Below are positions 3,700 to 21,290 of a stretch of DNA of 35,760 nt, piece by piece. Source of the stretch: Pseudomonadota bacterium (GTDB lineage Bacteria > Pseudomonadota > Gammaproteobacteria > Burkholderiales > Sulfuriferulaceae); contig JAJXUP010000006.1 in assembly GCA_021782795.1 (NCBI GenBank), positions 1-35,760 on the forward strand. Direction: 5' to 3'. The translations under genes and the position numbers were made by a program. How positions within the stretch are numbered: position 1 is the first letter of the stretch; the number at the start of each line of letters is the position of its first letter. The notes below the pieces were generated by a model. The model did no database searches. It was given only the letters and a program-made list of their open reading frames with translations, and was not told the origin of the DNA.

Positions 3700-4266
3700 A
3701 TGAGCATAAAATCCGACCGCTGGATCCGTCACATGGCGGAACAGCATGGCATGATCGAGCCGTTCGAACCACAGCAGGTGCGTGAGCAGGACGGCCGGCG
3801 CATCGTGTCCTATGGCACGTCGAGTTACGGTTACGACATCCGCTGCGCGGATGAATTCAAGCTGTTTACCAACATCAACTCGACCATTGTCGATCCGAAG
3901 CATTTCGATCCCAACTCGTTCATCGATGTGCGCGGTGATTCGTGCATCATTCCGCCGAATTCGTTTGCACTGGCGCGTACTGTGGAATATTTCCGCATCC
4001 CGCGCAATGTGCTGACGATCTGTCTGGGTAAATCCACTTATGCCCGCTGCGGCATCATTGTCAATGTGACGCCGTTCGAACCCGAGTGGGAAGGGTATGT
4101 GACGCTGGAGTTCTCCAATACCACGCCATTGCCGGCGCGGATCTACGCCCATGAAGGCGTGGCCCAGGTCCTGTTTTTCGAGAGCGACGAGGAGTGCGAT
4201 ATCTCCTACCGCGATCGGGGCGGGAAGTATCAGGGGCAAAGCGGGGTAACCCTACCGACAATCTGA
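3700..4266 (+). CDS. dcd: dCTP deaminase
   Basis: Converts dCTP to dUTP plus ammonia, feeding dTMP synthesis. The 188-aa length is typical of the trimeric enzyme. Seen in the sequence are [13 protein letters not shown] near residue 41, the nucleotide-binding GKSTYAR (Ser112, Arg116 by alignment with the E. coli Ser111/Arg115), and [11 protein letters not shown] with the catalytic Glu at 137. The C-terminal GKYQGQ.GVTLP closes over the active site in the family. It lies 3 nt downstream of apbC. A possible promoter and hairpin follow before the decarboxylase gene. Confidence 0.96.
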
Positions 4267-4281
4267 TGTGCCTGCTACAAT
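4255..4281 (+). promoter_or_regulatory. Candidate promoter for the decarboxylase gene
   Basis: TACAAT (4276-4281) is a good -10 hexamer. CCGACA (4255-4260) matches the -35 consensus at 4 of 6 positions but with a short 15-bp spacer, and it overlaps the end of dcd. The same TACAAT hexamer appears in the stronger grxD promoter candidate of this window. The call is weak because of the spacer. Confidence 0.3.
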
Positions 4282-4286
4282 GCGCC

Positions 4287-4322
4287 AACCGGACCGTCGG
4301 ACTTTGCTTCTGGCGGTTTTTT
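4287..4322 (+). terminator. Hairpin with T-run between dcd and the decarboxylase
   Basis: AACCG and CGGTT can pair across an imperfect inner stem (CC with GG after a bulge), and the 3' arm runs straight into TTTTTT (4317-4322), then CTTTT. This looks like a modest intrinsic terminator for the apbC-dcd transcript. It also lies just downstream of the candidate TACAAT promoter, so it might act as a leader attenuator. The stem is imperfect. Confidence 0.4.
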
Positions 4323-4367
4323 CTTTTGTGCCGTGCAGGCGTCTTCCTGGTTCCGAGGTGAGAACAC

Positions 4368-6608
4368 ATGAAATTCCGTTTCCCGGTGGTGGTGATCGAC
4401 GAGGATTTTCGTTCCGAGAATGCCAGCGGCCTGGGTATCCGGGCGCTGGCCAAGGCGATCGAGGACGAAGGCACCGAAGTGCTTGGCGTGACCAGCTACG
4501 GTGATCTGTCGAGTTTTGCCCAGCAGCAGAGCCGGGCCTCGGCATTCATCCTGTCGATCGACGATGAGGAATTTTCTTCGCCGACTGCTGCCGCGCACGC
4601 GGTGGAACAGTTGCGTCTGTTTGTCGAGGAAATCCGTTTCCGTAACGCCGACATCCCGATTTTCCTTTATGGCGAAACGCGGACCTCGCGCCACATTCCC
4701 AATGATGTGCTCAAGGAACTGCACGGCTTCATCCACATGTTCGAGGACACGCCCGAATTTGTCGCGCGGCACATCCTGCGCGAGATCAAGACCTACCTGG
4801 ATTCGCTGGCGCCGCCATTTTTCCGCGCGCTTACCCATTATGCTTCTGACGGTTCGTATTCGTGGCACTGCCCGGGACACTCGGGTGGCGTGGCATTTCT
4901 CAAGAGCCCGGTGGGACAGATGTTTCACCAGTTCTTTGGCGAGAACATGCTGCGCGCCGACGTGTGCAACGCGGTGGAAGAGTTGGGGCAGTTACTCGAC
5001 CATACCGGGCCGGTGGCTGCATCCGAGCGCAATGCGGCGCGCATCTTCAATGCCGATCACCTGTTTTTCGTTACGAATGGCACGTCGACATCCAACAAGA
5101 TCGTCTGGCATTCCACAGTGGCGCCGGGTGACATCGTGGTGGTGGATCGCAACTGTCATAAATCGATCCTGCATGCCATTATCATGACCGGAGCGATTCC
5201 GGTGTTCCTCATGCCGACACGCAACCACTATGGCATCATTGGACCCATCCCGCTGGAGGAATTCCGACCGGAGAATATCCGCAAGAAAATCGAGGCCAAT
5301 CCGTTCGCACGCGGTATTGGCACTCAGCCGCGCGTGCTGACCATCACCCAGAGCACCTATGATGGCGTGCTGTACAACGTCGAAACCATCAAGTCGATGC
5401 TCGATGGTGAAATCGATACGCTGCATTTCGATGAGGCGTGGCTACCGCATGCGCCGTTTCATGATTTTTATCGTGACATGCATGCCATTGGTCGCGATCG
5501 GCCGCGCTGCAGCGAATCCATGCTGTTTTCCACTCAGTCGACGCACAAGATGCTGGCAGGGCTGTCTCAGGCTTCGCAAATCCTGGTACAGGAGTGCCAG
5601 CAACGCAAGCTCGACCGCGATGTGTTCAACGAGGCGTTTCTCATGCACACTTCCACCAGCCCGCAGTATGCCATCATCGCATCATGCGACGTGGCAGCGG
5701 CGATGATGGAACCGCCGGGCGGCACGGCGCTGGTGGAAGAGTCGATTCTGGAATCCCTCGATTTCCGTCGCGCCATGCGCAAGGTGGACGAGGAATTCGG
5801 CGATTCGTGGTGGTTCAAGGTGTGGGGTCCGGACACTCTCGCCGAGGAGGGCATCGGCGAACGCGACGATTGGGTGCTGCGCGCCAAGGACCGCTGGCAC
5901 GGTTTCGGTGATCTTGCGCCCGGGTTCAACATGCTTGACCCGATCAAGTCTACCATCATCACGCCCGGGCTGGATGTCGATGGCGATTTTTCTGATTCGG
6001 GCATGCCGGCTGCCATCGTGACCAAGTATCTGGCGGAACATGGCGTGATCGTGGAAAAGACGGGTTTGTATTCCTTTTTCATCATGTTCACCATCGGTAT
6101 CACCAAGGGGCGCTGGAACACCATGGTGACCACGCTGCAACAGTTCAAGGATGAATATGATCGCAACCAGCCGCTGTGGCGTGTGCTGCCCGAGTTTGTT
6201 GCCAAGCACCCACGCTATGAACGCATGGGTCTGAAGGATCTGTGTGATGCCATTCACGGCATTTACAAGGCCAATGACATTGCCCGCCTGACAACCGAGA
6301 TGTACCTGTCAAACATGGAGCCCGCCATGAAGCCGGCCGATGCCTATGCGCGCATGGCGCATCGGGCCATCGACCGGGTCGAGATCGACAAACTCGAGGG
6401 GCGTATCACCAGCGTGTTGCTGACGCCGTATCCGCCGGGAATCCCGCTCCTGATTCCCGGAGAGCGTTTCAATGCCACTATCGTCAGTTATCTCAAGTTT
6501 GCGCGTGATTTCAACGAGCGCTTTCCCGGTTTCGAGTCCGACATTCACGGGCTGGTCAAGGAAGATGTCGACGGCAAGCCCGTCTACTACGTCGACTGCG
6601 TCAGGTAA
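4368..6608 (+). CDS. Orn/Lys/Arg decarboxylase, PLP fold type III
   Basis: Large biodegradative-type basic amino acid decarboxylase (746 aa) that removes CO2 from arginine, lysine or ornithine to give a polyamine precursor, consuming a proton. An N-terminal flavodoxin-like wing domain (about 1-130) precedes the aspartate aminotransferase-like PLP domain. That domain has PGHSGG, VDRNCHKSI and LHFDEAW, and the Schiff-base Lys is at residue 394 in STHK. The C-terminal domain includes YPPGIPLLIPGE and ends HGLV...YYVDCV. Length is close to AdiA (755) and CadA (715), and the tail resembles AdiA slightly more, but the substrate cannot be assigned. An ATG with GAGGTGAGAACAC upstream is used. No antiporter gene adjoins it, unlike classical acid-resistance operons. 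Confidence 0.92.
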   Translation: MKFRFPVVVIDEDFRSENASGLGIRALAKAIEDEGTEVLGVTSYGDLSSFAQQQSRASAFILSIDDEEFSSPTAAAHAVEQLRLFVEEIRFRNADIPIFLYGETRTSRHIPNDVLKELHGFIHMFEDTPEFVARHILREIKTYLDSLAPPFFRALTHYASDGSYSWHCPGHSGGVAFLKSPVGQMFHQFFGENMLRADVCNAVEELGQLLDHTGPVAASERNAARIFNADHLFFVTNGTSTSNKIVWHSTVAPGDIVVVDRNCHKSILHAIIMTGAIPVFLMPTRNHYGIIGPIPLEEFRPENIRKKIEANPFARGIGTQPRVLTITQSTYDGVLYNVETIKSMLDGEIDTLHFDEAWLPHAPFHDFYRDMHAIGRDRPRCSESMLFSTQSTHKMLAGLSQASQILVQECQQRKLDRDVFNEAFLMHTSTSPQYAIIASCDVAAAMMEPPGGTALVEESILESLDFRRAMRKVDEEFGDSWWFKVWGPDTLAEEGIGERDDWVLRAKDRWHGFGDLAPGFNMLDPIKSTIITPGLDVDGDFSDSGMPAAIVTKYLAEHGVIVEKTGLYSFFIMFTIGITKGRWNTMVTTLQQFKDEYDRNQPLWRVLPEFVAKHPRYERMGLKDLCDAIHGIYKANDIARLTTEMYLSNMEPAMKPADAYARMAHRAIDRVEIDKLEGRITSVLLTPYPPGIPLLIPGERFNATIVSYLKFARDFNERFPGFESDIHGLVKEDVDGKPVYYVDCVR

Positions 6609-13715: not shown

Positions 13716-16310
13716 CTACGCCGCCGGGCTGGCCGTTTCGGCCTGTTGCGCGACCCGGGCGGCGATGTGCGCCAGCGCCTCGTCCACCTGATCGATCAGG
13801 ATCAGGCACAGATCGCCGGGTTCAAGTCCGGCAAGTGCCAGATCGATGGCGTTGAATTCCCCCTGTATTTCATCGATCTGCCGGGTCCGCTGCGCGCCGG
13901 TCAGGCCCTCGCGCAGCAGTCCAAGCACCTCGCCGTCGGCGCGACCGCGTTGACACTGGTCTTCATACAGAATCACCCGGTCGAAGGCGGCGCCGAGAAT
14001 CGCGGTCTGCTGGCGCAGGTCTTCGTCGCGCCGGTCACCCGCGCCGCTGATGACCACGCTGCGGCGTTTGGCTGGCAACGCGGAGATCGCATCGACCAGT
14101 GCCAGGATGGCGTCCGGATTGTGCCCATAGTCGGCGATCAGCGTTGCATCGCGATATTCGAACAGGTTGAAGCGGCCCGGCGCCGTCGCGGCATCGTTGA
14201 TGAAGCTCGCCAGTCCGCGCTCGATGGTGCCGTGGTCGAGCCCGAGCGCCCAGGCGGCACCGATCGCGGCCATGACATTTTCGACCTGGAACGGAATGCT
14301 GCCATTGCGCGTGAGCGGAATGTTATCGAGTGCAAAGCGCAGCACCCGTCGTCCCTTGCGGGCGACCAGATCGCCGCCGTCGCGGTAAATCACTCCATGG
14401 CCCTGTGCCGAGTGGGTGACGACAAGCGGATGCAACCTGTCCTGGGCGAAGAAAATGACCTTGCCGGGGCAGGCCGTGGCCATCTTGGCCACCATCGGAT
14501 CAGCGGCATTGAGTACCGCTGTGCCGCTGGCAGCGACATTTTCCACGATGACGCGCTTGACGACCGCCAGTTCGTCGATGGTGTGGATGTAGTTGAGCCC
14601 GAGGTGGTCGCCGATGCCAATGTTGGTGACGATGGCGACATCGCACTGGTCGAACGCCAGCCCTTCGCGCAGGATGCCACCGCGTGCGGTTTCCAGCACG
14701 GCGGCTTCGACCTGCGGGTGGGCAAGCACATTGCGGGCGCTCTTCGGACCACTGCAGTCACCGGTGTCGATGCGGCGATCGTCGATGTAGACACCATCGG
14801 AATTGGTCATGCCGGTGCGCCAGCCATTATGACGCAGCAGATGGGCGGTGAGTCTGACGGTGGTGGTCTTGCCGTTGGTGCCTGCTACGGCGACCAGCGG
14901 GATGCGCCCGGTGCGTCCGGGTGGGAACAGCATGTCGATGATGGCGACGCCGACGTCACGGGGCTTGCCGAACGACGGCGCCAGGTGCATGCGCAGGCCG
15001 GGCGCGGCATTGACTTCGACGATACCGCCGCCTTGCATTTCCAGGGGAAGGTGTACGCTGTTGCACAGGATGTCGACGCCGCAGATGTCGAGTCCGACCA
15101 TGCGCGCGGCATCGACAGCCCGTGCAGCCAGCGCCGGATGGACATCATCCGTGACATCGGTGGCTGAGCCGCCCGTGCTCAGGTTAGCGTTGTTGCGCAG
15201 CAGCACCAGCGCACCTTTGGCGGGCACGCTTTCCGGGGTGTAGCCCTGTTTGGACAAGGTGGCCAGCGCAATTTCGTCGAGGCGGATCTTGCTCAGTGAC
15301 GTGGCGTGGCCTTCGCTGCGCCGGCTGTCACGGTTCACTTCTTCCACCAGCCCGGCGATGCTGGTTTCGCCGTCACCATATACGTGTGGCGGATCGCGCC
15401 GCGCGGCGGCAACCAGTCTGTCACCGACCACCAGCAGTCGGAAATCGTGGCCGGTGATATAACGTTCGACCAGAACCGGCGTGCCGACCCGGGCTGCGGC
15501 GTGCCATGCGGCCATGATCTGCTCGCGTGATTCGAGGTTGACGGCGACGCCGCGACCCTGGTTGCCATATTGCGGCTTGACCGCTACTGCGCTGCCTATT
15601 TCCTGCGCGGCGCGCCAGGCATCTTCGGCATCATGCACGGGTCGGCCGACGGGGACTGGAACGCCGATAGCGTGCAGCAGACGCTTGGTCAGTTCCTTGT
15701 CCTGGGCGATGGCTTCGGCAACCGCGCTGGTCTGGTCGGTCTCGGCGGCCAGAATGCGGCGGCTGTGACTGCCCCAGCCAAATTGCACCATGCTGCCTTC
15801 GGTGAGGCGCCGCCAGGGGATGCCACGACGTATGGCTGCATCGACGATCGCACCCGTACTTGGGCCAAGCCGGATGTCTTCGTCAATCGTGCGCAGTTCG
15901 GCCAGCGCTGCTACGGCGTCGAAGGCCGTGTCGGCTGCTGCTGCGTGGCACAGTTCGAGCGCCAGTTCGAGTGCACGGCGGCCGACAGCTTCTTCACTGT
16001 AGGCGAACACCACCTGATAGACGCCGCTGTCGAGCGTGGCCGTGGTGCGGCTGAAGGTCACCGGACAACCGGCAAATGCCTGCAGCGAAAGCGCGGCCAC
16101 TTCAAGGGCATGCGCCATGGGGATATGGTGACTGCCGCCTTGCGGTTGCAGTGAAGGCATCTGCGGAAAGCGCGCGCGCAGCGCCGGCTCGAAACCGGGA
16201 AGTCGCGTCAGGTCGGTTTCTGTCTCGTCGCAATGAATGACGGTTTCGATGGATGTGTGCCGGCTCCACAGGTTGGGGCCGCGCAACGCACGGATGCGGG
16301 AAACATGCAT
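13716..16310 (-). CDS. cphA: Cyanophycin synthetase CphA
   Basis: Non-ribosomal polymerase (864 aa) that builds multi-L-arginyl-poly-L-aspartate, a nitrogen/carbon store laid down as granules. Domain order is N-domain (about 1-160), ATP-grasp domain (about 165-470; VAVKPQYGNQGRG, LVERYITGHDFRLLVVG, IVEVNAAPGLRMHL), which in the family adds Asp to the backbone, and a Mur-ligase-like domain (about 475-864), which adds Arg. The Mur P-loop GTNGKTT is at 477-483 and IGIGDHLG near 565 is intact, so both ATP sites look active. The N-domain, which in some CphA enzymes carries a hydrolytic HxxEH site, here reads HALEV (67-71), so that third site is probably dead. The start overlaps no gene; AAGGAT lies in the end of the upstream cphA' gene, 6 nt away. 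Confidence 0.96.
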   Translation of the reverse strand: MHVSRIRALRGPNLWSRHTSIETVIHCDETETDLTRLPGFEPALRARFPQMPSLQPQGGSHHIPMAHALEVAALSLQAFAGCPVTFSRTTATLDSGVYQVVFAYSEEAVGRRALELALELCHAAAADTAFDAVAALAELRTIDEDIRLGPSTGAIVDAAIRRGIPWRRLTEGSMVQFGWGSHSRRILAAETDQTSAVAEAIAQDKELTKRLLHAIGVPVPVGRPVHDAEDAWRAAQEIGSAVAVKPQYGNQGRGVAVNLESREQIMAAWHAAARVGTPVLVERYITGHDFRLLVVGDRLVAAARRDPPHVYGDGETSIAGLVEEVNRDSRRSEGHATSLSKIRLDEIALATLSKQGYTPESVPAKGALVLLRNNANLSTGGSATDVTDDVHPALAARAVDAARMVGLDICGVDILCNSVHLPLEMQGGGIVEVNAAPGLRMHLAPSFGKPRDVGVAIIDMLFPPGRTGRIPLVAVAGTNGKTTTVRLTAHLLRHNGWRTGMTNSDGVYIDDRRIDTGDCSGPKSARNVLAHPQVEAAVLETARGGILREGLAFDQCDVAIVTNIGIGDHLGLNYIHTIDELAVVKRVIVENVAASGTAVLNAADPMVAKMATACPGKVIFFAQDRLHPLVVTHSAQGHGVIYRDGGDLVARKGRRVLRFALDNIPLTRNGSIPFQVENVMAAIGAAWALGLDHGTIERGLASFINDAATAPGRFNLFEYRDATLIADYGHNPDAILALVDAISALPAKRRSVVISGAGDRRDEDLRQQTAILGAAFDRVILYEDQCQRGRADGEVLGLLREGLTGAQRTRQIDEIQGEFNAIDLALAGLEPGDLCLILIDQVDEALAHIAARVAQQAETASPAA

Positions 16311-16316
16311 GTCGGA

Positions 16317-18497
16317 TTATCCTTGGTTGTCGTTCCAGGCCGTCAGCCCCGCCAGAATCAGTTCCGGTTCGACGCCAAGCGCCCACACGGCGGCGATGCC
16401 AGCCAGCGCCTGGGTCAGGCTCAGGGTATGCGGCAGCAGGGCAGTGGCCAGCAAGGCGGTTGACTGTCCGGCATTGTCCAGCATGACGGCAGCGTCCTGT
16501 ACGTAGACGGCGCGTCCGGCATTGTGCAGGTGCTGGTGTAGGGCTTCCTGATCGTGGCGGGCGGAAAACAGTATCGTCTCGCCGTCGCATAGCGACATCA
16601 GCTGCGGGGTTTCCGGGCTGGCGGCATCGAGCACGGCCGCGCCGTGCGGCAATACCACATCGATCAGTGTGCGGTAGATCATGAAACGCCGCTCCGGCGT
16701 GGTCATGGCGTAGGCAGAGAAATCTTCCTGCGGGTGCAGGTCGGTCAGTACCGCAACCTGGCAGCGGTCGAATGCAAGTCCATGCTGCAGCAGGTCGTGA
16801 AAGCCGGTTTCGCCTACGGCGCAGCTGACTCCGGGGTTGAGCAGCAGTTTATGCATCCCCTGCCAGCCCGAGGCGTCGCCGATTTCGATCTGGCGCTGGT
16901 CGAGGAACAATCCTTGCCGCGATGCCAGGCCGACCTGCTTGCGACCGATCTGTAGCAGACCGGCGATGAGCCGGGCAGTACCGCTGCGGCCGCTGCCGGC
17001 GGTGGCGACGATGGGGATGCGACCCGTGCGGCCCTGAGGAAACAGATGTTCGACAATGGCGGCGCCGACCGGTCGTGGCTGACCTTCAGCGGGTTTCAGG
17101 TGCATCAACAGGCCGGGCCCGGCATTGACTTCCACGATGGCACCGCGCTGCTCGTGCAGCGGTCGGGAAATGTCGTCTGCGACGAGATCGATGCCGGCAA
17201 TGTCCAGTCCGACCACCTGTGCTGCCAGCACCACCAGCTCGGCCGTATCGGGGTGCACCTGGTCGGTGACGTCGATGGCGACATTGCCGATGCGTTGCAC
17301 GATGACCTTGCGCCCCGCTGGCGGGATGTCGTCGGCGATGAATCCCTGGCGTTCCAGTTCGATCCGGCAGGCAGAATCGACGTGAACCTGGTTGAGCGGG
17401 TGGGCTTCGGTATCGCCTCGGCGCGGATCGGTATTGATCTGCGATCCGATCAGCTGACGTATCGTGCTGTGGCCGTCACCCGTGACAGTGGCGATCTCGC
17501 CGCGTGCCGCAGCGACCATGCGATCCCCAACCACCAGCAGGCGGTGTTCCTGACCGCTGATGTGTCGCTCCACGAGCACGTCGCTGTCTTCTTCCGCGGC
17601 GACTGCCCACGCGGTTTCGATTTCCTTGCGCGTCATGAGATTAACGAATACGGCGCGACCATGATTGCCACTCAACGGCTTGATCACCACTGGCAAGCCG
17701 ATATCCTGGGCCAGTTCCCAGACGGTGGCAGTATCGTGCGCCAGTTCTCCTTCCGGCACAGGAACACCGCACTGCCGCAGCAATTCCTTGGTCAGTGCCT
17801 TGTCGCGCGAGATGGTCTCGGCAATGGCGCTGGTGCGATCGGTTTCGGCGGTCCAGATGCGGCGCTGCGCCTGGCCATGGCCCAGTTGCACCAGATTGCC
17901 GCGCGTGAGGCGGATGGCCGGGATATCGCGGTCGTCAGCTGCATCTACGATGCTGTTCGTGCTCGGGCCGAGCAGGAATGACTCGGCCAGGTCAGTCAGC
18001 TCTTCAACCGCAGCAGCCACATCGAACGGGGCAGCACGCATTGCGGCCAGCACCAGTTCGCGGCCGAGATCGAGTGCGCGGCGGGTGACATCTTCGTGGA
18101 AAGCGCGCACCACGACCTTGTACACGCCGCGTTCATCCATCTCGCGCGCGCGACCGAAGCCGGCGGGCATGCCTGCCATGGCCTGCAGTTCAAGCGTGAC
18201 GTGTTCGAGAATATGTGCCGGCCATGTGCCTTCGTGCAGGCGTTGCAGGAAGCCGCCGCGTACGCCGGGGCTGCAATGGTGCTCGATCAGTCCCGGCAGC
18301 CACTGGGCAAGGCGTTCGGCGTAGCCCGGAATGCGGTGCGAAGGCCAGTCTTCCAGCACACCGATATCGACCCATGCCTCAAGGACCGGCCGATAGGTCC
18401 AGATGTTGGGACCTTGCAGGGAAATGATACGCAGAAAGCGAATATCCGCGTCTGCGGGAAAGTCAGCCGGTTGATTCGGAATGCAGGAATGTTGCAT
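16317..18497 (-). CDS. Second cyanophycin synthetase, CphA'/CphA2-like, Mur site degenerate
   Basis: 726-aa CphA paralogue, first gene of the minus-strand operon. The N-domain keeps the HxxEH motif (HILEH, 95-99) in AHILEHVTLELQAMAGM. The ATP-grasp domain appears complete (VVIKPLSGNHGRA, VLVERHISGQEHRLLVVG, IVEVNAGPGLLMHL). In the Mur region the P-loop is GSGRSGT (501-507) instead of GTNGKTT, GIGDHLG is replaced by HPQEDFSA, and the protein ends at the point where the C-terminal Mur lobe starts in CphA. So only the ATP-grasp site and N-domain site can act. Loss of the second ATP site is the known feature of CphA2, which polymerises beta-Asp-Arg dipeptides. Whether this one does so is inference. 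It carries no frame disruption and is 6 nt from cphA. Confidence 0.88.
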   Translation of the reverse strand: MQHSCIPNQPADFPADADIRFLRIISLQGPNIWTYRPVLEAWVDIGVLEDWPSHRIPGYAERLAQWLPGLIEHHCSPGVRGGFLQRLHEGTWPAHILEHVTLELQAMAGMPAGFGRAREMDERGVYKVVVRAFHEDVTRRALDLGRELVLAAMRAAPFDVAAAVEELTDLAESFLLGPSTNSIVDAADDRDIPAIRLTRGNLVQLGHGQAQRRIWTAETDRTSAIAETISRDKALTKELLRQCGVPVPEGELAHDTATVWELAQDIGLPVVIKPLSGNHGRAVFVNLMTRKEIETAWAVAAEEDSDVLVERHISGQEHRLLVVGDRMVAAARGEIATVTGDGHSTIRQLIGSQINTDPRRGDTEAHPLNQVHVDSACRIELERQGFIADDIPPAGRKVIVQRIGNVAIDVTDQVHPDTAELVVLAAQVVGLDIAGIDLVADDISRPLHEQRGAIVEVNAGPGLLMHLKPAEGQPRPVGAAIVEHLFPQGRTGRIPIVATAGSGRSGTARLIAGLLQIGRKQVGLASRQGLFLDQRQIEIGDASGWQGMHKLLLNPGVSCAVGETGFHDLLQHGLAFDRCQVAVLTDLHPQEDFSAYAMTTPERRFMIYRTLIDVVLPHGAAVLDAASPETPQLMSLCDGETILFSARHDQEALHQHLHNAGRAVYVQDAAVMLDNAGQSTALLATALLPHTLSLTQALAGIAAVWALGVEPELILAGLTAWNDNQG

Positions 18498-18610
18498 GGA
18501 GTATGTCAGTGTCGGGTCAGTTTATGCTGTACTCAATCATAACGCACCAGTAGAATTCAGGTTTACCTGATTGCCTGATTTTATTGATCGTGACTGTTGC
18601 AACCGATCCC
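18498..18610. promoter_or_regulatory. Divergent control region of the cyanophycin locus
   Basis: About 113 nt separate the cphA' start codon from the ABC gene start codon. Inside is an inverted repeat TCAGGT-TT-ACCTGA (18557-18570), overlapped by two direct copies of CCTGATT (18566-18572, 18574-18580) with an 8-nt period. On the minus strand TATGAT gives a possible -10 for cphA', without a good -35. Upstream of both genes the Shine-Dalgarno signals are poor. The repeats are a candidate operator for a nitrogen or arginine regulator, but I cannot name it. Confidence 0.45.
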
Positions 18611-20851
18611 ATGTCCTGTTTGCCGATCGCCTGGCGTGGTCGTCTGGCATTCGGTTTTTACCCCGGTGAAGTTGTGCTTGCCGTGCTGGAAACGGATCTG
18701 GACGAACACCTGTATTTCAGATCCGGTTTGCTGGTCTTGACCGGGCAGCGTTTGCTGGGTGTCGGCGCCGATGGCCAACTGCTGCATGACTATCCCGTGA
18801 CTGCAACACTGCGTCTGACACGCCGCGACCATGCGGGCGTGGGTGTGCTGGGTCTGGATCGCGATGGCGTACGGCTGGCGACCTGGCGGTATTCGCTGGC
18901 GCGTGCAGCGGCGGCGGGTCGTGTTGAGGCGAATTTCCACGCGGTGCAGGCGGGCACGGATGCAAGCACCCTGATTGCCGAAGCGCTCTGCCCGCAATGC
19001 GCGCAGCCGCTGCCGGAGGCCGATGCAATGTGTCCGACCTGTGCGCCGGTGTCCGAGGACGCCGCGCAGTCAGGCTGGGCATTGCTGCGTCTGTGGCGTT
19101 TCGCTCGCCCGTACGGGCTGTCGCTGCTGGGCGGGTTCCTGCTCACGCTCGGTTCGACTGCGGCCACGTTGGTGCCGCCCTATCTGACCATGCCGCTGAT
19201 GGACAAGGTGCTGATCCCTTACCAGACCGGTCATGCGATCCATATGTCCATGGTGGCGGGGTATCTGGTGGCCTTGTTGCTGGCCGCGCTGGTGGCCTGG
19301 GGGCTTGGCTGGGGACGTACCTGGTGGCTGGCGCGCGTGAGCGAGCGGATTTGCATGGATCTGCGACTGGCGACGTATCGTCATTTGCAAAGCCTGCCGC
19401 TGGCTTACTTTGGCGGCAAGCGCACCGGTGACCTGATTTCGCGTATCGGCAGCGAGTCGGATCGCATTTCGGTGTTCCTGTCGCTGCATTTGCTCGATTT
19501 CGTCATCGATATGCTGGTGATGCTGATGACGGCTGCCATCCTGCTGTCGATCAATCCCTGGCTCGCACTGGTGACTTTGCTGCCGATCCCGGTGATCGCC
19601 TGGATGATCCATCGCGTGCGCGACAGGCTGCGCTTCGGTTTCGAGAAGGCTGACCGGGTCTGGGGTGAGATCAGCAATGTGCTCGCCGACACCATACCGG
19701 GGGTGCGCGTGGTCAAGGCATTTGCCCAGGAGCAGCGCGAAATCGACCGTTTCCGGGAAGCCAATCAGCGCAATCTGCAGATCAATGATCAGGTCAATGC
19801 CATCTGGTCGCTGTTTGCACCCAGCGTGACGCTCCTGACGGAGATCGGCTTGCTGGTGGTGTGGGCATTCGGCATCTGGCAGGTCGGGCATGGTCAGATC
19901 ACGGTGGGCATACTGACCGCATTTCTCACCTACATCAGCCGTTTTTACACCCGGCTTGATTCGATGAGTCGTATCGTGTCGGTGACGCAGAAGGCGGCAG
20001 CGGGAGCCAAACGCATCTTCGAGATTCTTGATTATCAGTCGAGCGTGCCCGAACCGGCCAATCCGGTGCACCCGACCGCGCTGCGTGGACGGATTGCGTT
20101 GCGCCACATCGGGTTTCGTTATGGCAACCGCAGCGTGATTCACGGCATGGATCTGACCATCGAGCCGGGTGAGATGATCGGCCTGGTCGGGCACAGCGGT
20201 TCGGGCAAGAGTACCCTGGTGAATCTGATCTGCCGGTTCCACGACGTGAGCGAAGGAGCGATCCTGGTCGATGGCGAGGACATCCGCAATTTCCCTGTCA
20301 GCGAATACCGCCGCCACATCGGGCTGGTGCTGCAGGAACCATTCCTGTTTTTTGGCACCATCGCCGAAAATATTGCGTATGGCAAACCCCACGCCACGCA
20401 CGAAGAAATCGTAACCGCCGCACGCGCGGCGCATGCGCACGAATTCATCCTGCGCCTGCCGCAAGGTTATGACTCGCTGGTGGGTGAGCGCGGGCAGGCG
20501 CTTTCGGGTGGCGAGCGCCAGCGTATTTCGATTGCGCGTGCCTTGCTGATCGATCCACGCATTCTGATCCTCGATGAAGCCACGGCCTCGGTGGATACCG
20601 AAACCGAACGCGAGATCCAGGCTGCGCTCGATAACCTGGTGCGCGGACGCACGACCATCGCCGTGGCGCACCGTCTGAGTACGCTACGACATGCCGACCG
20701 GCTGGTGGTGCTGGAGCGCGGTCGCATTGTCGAGGTCGGCCGGCATGAAACGCTGCTGGCCATGAATGGCGCCTATGCCCAACTCTACGAAGCCCAGGCA
20801 CGCCAGGTCGATGATGAACGCGAAGGAGAGTTGCTTGCCGATCCAGTCTGA
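18611..20851 (+). CDS. Cyanophycin-locus ABC transporter (fused permease and ATPase) with N-terminal zinc ribbon
   Basis: 746-aa half-transporter of the exporter type. Residues about 1-110 form a soluble beta-rich domain (LYFRSGLLVLTGQRLLGV...) that may be PH-like. A zinc ribbon follows, with CPQC and CPTC at 127-130 and 141-144, then six membrane helices (about 160-455). The C-terminal ATPase has Walker A GHSGSGKST (near 527), signature LSGGERQR (near 631), Walker B ILILDEATA and an AHRLS switch His, so it looks active. The coupling segment PLAYFGGKRTGDLISRI is typical of lipid A/drug exporters. No ribosome site is clear. The ATG at 18611 is used; TTG 18584 (755 aa) and GTG 18590 are alternatives. 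It is divergent from the cphA genes and overlaps a DUF1854 gene. As I recall, this pair is known to co-occur with cyanophycin genes, but its substrate is unknown. Confidence 0.88.
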   Translation: MSCLPIAWRGRLAFGFYPGEVVLAVLETDLDEHLYFRSGLLVLTGQRLLGVGADGQLLHDYPVTATLRLTRRDHAGVGVLGLDRDGVRLATWRYSLARAAAAGRVEANFHAVQAGTDASTLIAEALCPQCAQPLPEADAMCPTCAPVSEDAAQSGWALLRLWRFARPYGLSLLGGFLLTLGSTAATLVPPYLTMPLMDKVLIPYQTGHAIHMSMVAGYLVALLLAALVAWGLGWGRTWWLARVSERICMDLRLATYRHLQSLPLAYFGGKRTGDLISRIGSESDRISVFLSLHLLDFVIDMLVMLMTAAILLSINPWLALVTLLPIPVIAWMIHRVRDRLRFGFEKADRVWGEISNVLADTIPGVRVVKAFAQEQREIDRFREANQRNLQINDQVNAIWSLFAPSVTLLTEIGLLVVWAFGIWQVGHGQITVGILTAFLTYISRFYTRLDSMSRIVSVTQKAAAGAKRIFEILDYQSSVPEPANPVHPTALRGRIALRHIGFRYGNRSVIHGMDLTIEPGEMIGLVGHSGSGKSTLVNLICRFHDVSEGAILVDGEDIRNFPVSEYRRHIGLVLQEPFLFFGTIAENIAYGKPHATHEEIVTAARAAHAHEFILRLPQGYDSLVGERGQALSGGERQRISIARALLIDPRILILDEATASVDTETEREIQAALDNLVRGRTTIAVAHRLSTLRHADRLVVLERGRIVEVGRHETLLAMNGAYAQLYEAQARQVDDEREGELLADPV

Positions 20852-21290
20852 TGTTGCCGGAAGACTGACGTTCATCGACGCTCGCGGAGAGCGGCACGAT
20901 GCGTTGCTGCCAGTGCGGGCATTCCCCCTGAGTGCGCCGCAGGGCAGTGTCAGTCTGGTGGATGATCGCGGACAGGAGTGCCTGTGGATTCCCGAATTGA
21001 GTGAATTGCCGCCCGCCGAGCGTCAGTGCGTCGAGGCAGCGTTGGCCGAACGTGAGTTTGTGCCGAAAATTCTCACCATCGAGGCCATCAGCGGCTATTC
21101 TCTGCCCAGCGAGTGGCGCGTGCGCACCGACCGCGGCGAGACGACGCTGACGCTCAAGGCGGAGGAGGATATCCGTCGCCTCAGTGGCGGGCGCGTGCTG
21201 GTTGCTTCAGCCAGCGGGGTGCAGTTTCTCATTCCGGACGTGAGCCGGCTCGACCGGATGAGCCGGCGCAATCTGGATCACTTCATGTAA
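20835..21290 (+). CDS. DUF1854 protein of the cyanophycin locus
   Basis: About 151-aa soluble protein with no assigned activity. The preferred start is TTG at 20835 because AAGGAG lies exactly 6 nt upstream and the resulting N-terminus (PIQSDVAGRLTFIDARGE) enters the conserved region directly. ATG 20814 and 20811 upstream lack a ribosome site. The gene overlaps the last 17 nt of the ABC gene, so translation is probably coupled and the two products likely work together. Features include beta-rich segments, ECLWIPELSELPP, and a C-terminal GVQFLIPDVSRLD near the end. It may act as an accessory subunit of the transporter (inference from overlap). It converges on the CobD/CbiB-like gene 14 nt away. 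Confidence 0.8.
   Translation: MPIQSDVAGRLTFIDARGERHDALLPVRAFPLSAPQGSVSLVDDRGQECLWIPELSELPPAERQCVEAALAEREFVPKILTIEAISGYSLPSEWRVRTDRGETTLTLKAEEDIRRLSGGRVLVASASGVQFLIPDVSRLDRMSRRNLDHFM

Follow-up and report, generated by a model that had tools for sequence, protein, structure and literature searches.

A tandem pair of cyanophycin synthetase paralogs in betaproteobacteria carries the N-domain and Mur active sites on separate proteins

Two adjacent genes in a 35,760-nucleotide stretch of betaproteobacterial DNA (contig JAJXUP010000006.1, hereafter "the window") encode cyanophycin synthetase paralogs, CphA and CphA', that hold complementary sets of active sites. The metallopeptidase site of the N domain is dead in CphA and intact in CphA'; the arginine-adding Mur (M) site is intact in CphA and mostly degenerate in CphA'. 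The original prediction of such a partition is strongly supported, given a dead N site in 112/112 tandem CphA and an intact one in 111/111 tandem CphA', a pattern that is not due to chance. Already known were the pair itself (PMC5178258; also cited in PMC11362209), the N site, and the link that NCBI draws between cyanophycin and two neighboring genes, those for an exporter and a DUF1854 protein. We found no description of the N/Mur partition in the open-access literature, and, because the N site was discovered only in 2022, the partition was not visible to earlier work on the pair of Ralstonia eutropha H16. The CphA/CphA' of that strain, presumably H16_A0774/A0775, were reportedly the subject of a 2013 study by Adames et al. 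and are the same tandem pair.

Results

The two genes are encoded by the minus strand. This places cphA' (18497 to 16317; 726 amino acids) upstream and cphA (16310 to 13716; 864 amino acids) downstream, with 6 nt between the stop of the former and the start of the latter. The original coordinates for the genes were correct, and only the strand and order are refined here. Both proteins have the N-G-M architecture of CphA1 and score above the family cut-off of NF010623 (CphA 1216 bits and CphA' 952, cut-off 877; NCBIfam scan). In the same scan, CphA passes the equivalog TIGR02068 (965/850), CphA' fails it (689/850), and neither matches TIGR02069, the serine-type cyanophycinase CphB/E. Searched with phmmer against SuCphA1 (7lg5), CphA gives an E-value of 1e-184 and CphA' one of 9e-135; in the alignment CphA covers residues 4-867, whereas CphA' stops at 720, in the region of the Mcore/Mlid boundary.

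In CphA1, the N-site metallopeptidase makes primers, as stated in the original prediction, and the functional motif is Cx19HxxEH with H57, C59, R70, H79, E82 and H83 (PMC9262961), longer than the HxxEH considered there. HALEV of CphA (residues 67-71; 16098-16112, minus strand) and HILEH of CphA' (residues 95-99) both align with H79xxE82H83 of SuCphA1. The predicted loss of the second histidine in CphA understated the damage: the segment with Cys59 and His57 is deleted, Arg70 and His83 are gone (SuCphA1 numbering), and the site is thus wholly lost. C59 and H57 are missing from every tandem CphA in the alignment.

CphA had also been credited with both of its ATP-using sites. This claim stands for the Mur site, whose residues K499, E558, R561, D585 and H586 are intact in 110/110 tandem CphA; the arginine-adding features of CphA1 (GTNGKT, E558, DH and Mlid) are present in CphA and absent from the CphA' of the window. 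The G site, however, has one substitution. Among K220, K261, H267, R309, R323, N394, S396, D431, E450 and R458, only H267 is changed, to Gln251 (15558-15560, minus strand), and all Asp-recognition residues are kept. The residue is Gln in 107/111 tandem CphA and His in the other four. An H267A mutation impairs TeCphA1 and SuCphA1 (PMC9262961, PMC9427784); Gln at this position is probably tolerated. We rejected a strict complementation at His267, in which the G site would be dead in CphA and alive in CphA', because Gln in CphA can stand beside a dead CphA' G site (locus L184) or beside Arg in CphA' (L177), because four CphA keep His, and because Gln also occurs in the solitary CphA1 of L176 and L213.

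CphA' presents the opposite picture at the N domain. Its Cx19HxxEH metal site (C75, H95, E98 and H99, equivalent to C59, H79, E82 and H83 of SuCphA1; 18201-18275, minus strand) is kept in 111/111 homologs, none of which varies at H57, C59, R70, H79, E82, H83 or E87; Y110, R603 and D607, which touch the polymer at the N site of SuCphA1, are fixed as well. The Mur domain of the window's protein is degenerate in each of the ways first proposed: the P-loop reads GSGRSGTA in place of GTNGKTTT (16971-17006, minus strand), GDH is absent, and the protein ends at about model position 716 of 871, without the Mur C lobe. This last loss is not universal, as CphA' is full-length in Achromobacter, Cupriavidus, Bordetella and Pandoraea. 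Of the 52 non-redundant CphA', all have an intact N site, 48 an intact G-site core and 13 an intact M site, the last being exactly the 13 with Mlid.

The G site of CphA' is altered. K220, K261, H267, R309, D431 and E450 are kept in at least 107/111 tandem CphA', including the acyl-phosphate histidine (His279, equivalent to His267; 17661-17663, minus strand; 107/111); residues for ATP, Mg and the acyl-phosphate are therefore present. The elements that bind Asp in TeCphA1 (PMC9427784) have been lost together. On the minus strand, Arg323, the β-carboxylate binder, is replaced by Gly333 (17499-17501; Gly in 109/111); Arg458, the α-carboxylate binder, by Leu464 (17106-17108; Leu in 107/111); and the large Asp-recognition loop is shortened by deletion of CphA1 residues 396-399 (17274-17309; deleted in 111/111). 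Hence, of the predicted inventory of one working N site, one Mur site and two ATP-grasp sites, the N/Mur part survives, and the ATP-grasp part must be amended for H267Q in CphA and for the missing R323, R458 and loop in CphA'. We propose that the ATP-grasp site of CphA', conserved but altered, either has a changed nucleophile or is structural.

One locus, L184, provides a natural N-only variant. Its CphA' (4236-6257, minus strand) has lost the G-omega region and G-site residues 220, 267, 431 and 450, yet the 674-codon frame is open and the N site perfect, which argues that selection keeps the N site of CphA'. The AlphaFold model of the window's CphA' has a pLDDT of 90.4, and Foldseek superposes it on CphA1 structures with a TM score of 0.88 and on CphA2 with 0.66. 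We rejected the idea that CphA' is a pseudogene because of its open frames, strong conservation and confident model; for a few of the whole-genome matches, stops were flagged within the match or close to its ends.

The survey comprised 80 named betaproteobacterial loci, along with further pairs and solitary CphA1s from whole-genome searches, and the alignment held 112 tandem CphA, 111 tandem CphA' and 24 solitary CphA1. The 80 loci were picked by similarity to CphA' and are biased; an order-wide sample of 250 genomes is not. Two of the patterns that the original prediction had named as telling against it are not seen: loss of HxxEH from CphA' homologs occurs in 0/111, and among the 24 solitary CphA1 the N site is lost in only 3 and intact in 21. 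The Cupriavidus necator locus (L021) has the same N/Mur partition. Mean pairwise identity in 41 non-redundant pairs mirrors it: CphA' has the better conserved N domain (0.634 vs 0.550), CphA the better conserved M core (0.651 vs 0.441). For the G domain the two values are close (CphA 0.691, CphA' 0.653), so in most CphA' the ATP-grasp module is still of consequence.

In a G-domain tree built with the trait columns left out, CphA, CphA' and solitary CphA1 each fall on one side of a branch (SH-aLRT 97, 97 and 98, respectively). The partition is thus most simply explained by one ancient event. The predicted co-variation of HxxEH between partners holds in all tandem pairs, but with a single origin neither it nor the species counts are independent evidence. 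The support lies instead in the long upkeep of the partition while other sites of CphA' decayed.

Comparison with characterized enzymes places the pair more precisely. CphA1 (SuCphA1, 7LG5/7TXU; TeCphA1, 7WAE) shares its N-G-M architecture with both proteins, and the homology is clear; it has three sites in one chain, whereas the pair has the N site on CphA', the M site on CphA and altered G sites in both. The primer-dependent CphA1 of Tatumella (TmCphA1, 7LGN) and Acinetobacter (AbCphA1, 7LGM) have lost N and kept G and M, like tandem CphA, but they keep GNHGRG with His267, whereas tandem CphA typically has Gln, always beside an N-competent partner. CphA2 (7TA5, 8FXH) has a degenerate Mur P-loop and lacks Mlid, like the window's CphA' though not all CphA'. 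CphA2 has no N motif but retains the large loop and Arg323, whereas CphA' has the motif and lacks the other two. This comparison with the 8fxh sequence led us to reject membership of CphA' in CphA2, and it speaks against the suggestion that CphA' adds dipeptides. Gammaproteobacterial relatives of about 640 amino acids (L201 and L203), tried as CphA2 stand-ins, proved not to be CphA2. An adjacent "CphA1 and CphA2" pair in the betaproteobacterium Sideroxydans, also without a cyanophycinase, resembles the pair in the window but has been described only as two synthetases (PMC5178258).

Two further genes accompany the pair. Divergent from cphA' is the gene for an MsbA-like ABC exporter (18584-20851, plus strand; NF052233, "cyanophycin metabolism-associated ABC transporter", 1283 bits), followed by that for a DUF1854 protein (20766-21290, plus strand; NF052234, "cyanophycin metabolism-associated"), whose match begins at residue 26, such that the true start may be later. 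Ahead of its membrane domain, the exporter has some 165 extra amino acids (18584-19080, plus strand) with a zinc-ribbon-like CxxC...CxxC (CPQC...CPTC). All four genes occur together in 77 of the 80 named loci, and the other three end at contig ends. In the order-wide sample, 95 of 250 genomes have a CphA-like match and 85 have DUF1854; all 85 lie within the 95 and carry the CphA pair, also in genomes whose genes are widely separated on the chromosome (G511, G548 and G570). Comparison of the DUF1854 fold gave no significant match, and so no function follows from it. Diverged ABC+DUF1854 pairs (35-40% identity) exist in CphA-free genomes (L206, 3480-6218; L207, 2606-5304), where an attempt to read function from the neighbors was abandoned as these were uninformative.

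The distribution of cyanophycinase runs opposite to that of the pair. A strong match (>200 bits) is present in each of the 7 genomes that have solitary CphA1 alone, none of which has DUF1854, vs 1/85 genomes with DUF1854 and the pair, and in that one a solitary cphA adjoins it (Fisher p ~1e-9, with kinship ignored and the solitary genomes mostly from one family). The window's genome has no cyanophycinase gene (TIGR02069). These figures sharpen a published puzzle: only 2.8% of 903 betaproteobacterial genomes with CphA1 have a recognizable cyanophycinase, and isozymes of other kinds have been proposed (PMC10206079).

Several related arrangements were noted. Genome G422 has the tandem pair (L175) plus a separate solitary CphA1 (L176) that has Gln267 and a degenerate N site and lies near a cyanophycinase. 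Elsewhere, a solitary CphA1 is followed by a Mur-only gene (about 560-600 amino acids, "Mur ligase family protein"; L170-L172, L174, L190-L195, L210 and L214), in several cases also with a cyanophycinase, perhaps another division of labor. In the window, 7 kb from the pair, 4368-6608 (plus strand) encodes a decarboxylase of the arginine/lysine/ornithine family; its best NCBIfam match, arginine decarboxylase, is below cut-off (639 bits), and the gene may be linked to arginine use.

Discussion

We suggest that cphA'-cphA may be a cyanophycin synthetase split over two ancient paralogs. CphA would be the polymerase, its G domain adding Asp (with the Asp-recognition residues intact and His267 changed to Gln) and its M domain adding Arg; because its N-domain metallopeptidase is gone, it would be unable to make its own primers. 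CphA' would have given up canonical Asp and Arg addition. It would carry the metallopeptidase and, in trans and probably as a partner subunit, would cut nascent chains into short (β-Asp-Arg)n pieces for CphA to extend. That CphA elongates while CphA' provides a primer-making or chain-cutting activity in trans has, in our estimation, about an even chance of being correct; we infer N-site catalysis by CphA', formation of a CphA-CphA' complex and primer supply as the purpose.

There is a precedent for the arrangement that this pair would have: TmCphA1 is freed in trans from its need for primer by the isolated N domain of SuCphA1, or by an SuCphA1 whose G and M sites are inactivated (PMC9262961). 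Splitting confers no obvious benefit, however, since primer-free activity of SuCphA1 heterodimers is somewhat lower when the N site is on the other protomer (PMC9262961). Most CphA' conserve their G site roughly as well as CphA does, and an N-only function is thus not the whole story. Also counting against primer supply are the origin of the partition in one ancient event rather than many independent ones and a review's statement that no cyanophycin has been observed in wild-type R. eutropha, which has such a pair (PMC11362209). CphA' is a plausible primer source, but degradation of polymer or trimming before export would fit the same sequence data, and all three readings presuppose that its N site is a working peptidase.

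Foremost among the alternatives, though in our view unlikely, is that CphA' could be the intracellular cyanophycinase that is missing from betaproteobacteria. The endopeptidase of its N domain, freed from the balance with synthesis because it is on a separate protein, would degrade stored polymer, and general isoaspartyl peptidases would finish the task. The invariant N site, the published rarity of cyanophycinase and its near absence from our pair genomes all suit this idea. The known N-domain activity, however, is slow (hours to days) and yields mainly tetramers rather than dipeptides (PMC9262961); the family bias of the solitary genomes weakens the distributional argument; and a position 6 nt upstream of cphA, which looks co-transcribed, is odd for a degradative enzyme.

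The constant company of the exporter and DUF1854, linked or not, raises another alternative, one that we consider improbable: a short or soluble β-Asp-Arg-type oligopeptide, made by CphA and trimmed or capped by CphA', would be carried out by the ABC exporter and DUF1854 and not stored. The peptide would be a putative substrate, MsbA-like exporters often carry lipids, DUF1854 offers no clue from its fold, and the diverged ABC+DUF1854 pairs do without CphA. The scarcity of cyanophycinase in pair genomes and the lack of observed polymer in R. eutropha (PMC11362209) would nonetheless be expected of an exported product. In its fullest form, which is a long shot, a betaproteobacterial four-gene system would make, cut to length and export a β-Asp-Arg-type peptide, with polymerase and endopeptidase on separate paralogous subunits and a new nucleophile for the CphA' ATP-grasp site.

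It is more doubtful still that ligation is the main role of CphA', as a second ligase acting on a different nucleophile (for instance a dipeptide, like CphA2, the amino terminus of a chain or an amine), the N site mainly binding polymer. The retained catalytic core, the joint loss of R323, R458 and loop 396-399, and a parallel with CphA2 in the missing Mlid and Mur P-loop (PMC9427784) are in favor of such a ligase, but CphA2 itself (8fxh) keeps R323 and the loop, and the G site is gone from some CphA', the N site from none. It is very improbable that CphA' serves CphA as a scaffold or regulator without catalysis of its own: several CphA' sites do decay across species while the fold stays, but a pure scaffold would not be expected to keep all metal ligands and the general-base Glu fully invariant.

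CphA1 has been described as self-sufficient, making and cutting in one chain with a balance that expression cannot set (PMC9262961). Judging from the residues retained, the two activities would here be on separate proteins. CphA' thereby becomes a concrete candidate in a standing puzzle: betaproteobacteria are the largest sequenced group with CphA1 (903/1,614), 97% of them lack a recognizable cyanophycinase, and R. eutropha has such a pair and no visible cyanophycin. Primer supply in trans makes a sharp prediction, namely that a single Glu-to-Gln change in CphA' should abolish the primer-free function of the pair. The gene set is conserved across many betaproteobacteria, and its division of active sites may also aid cyanophycin production in C. 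necator.
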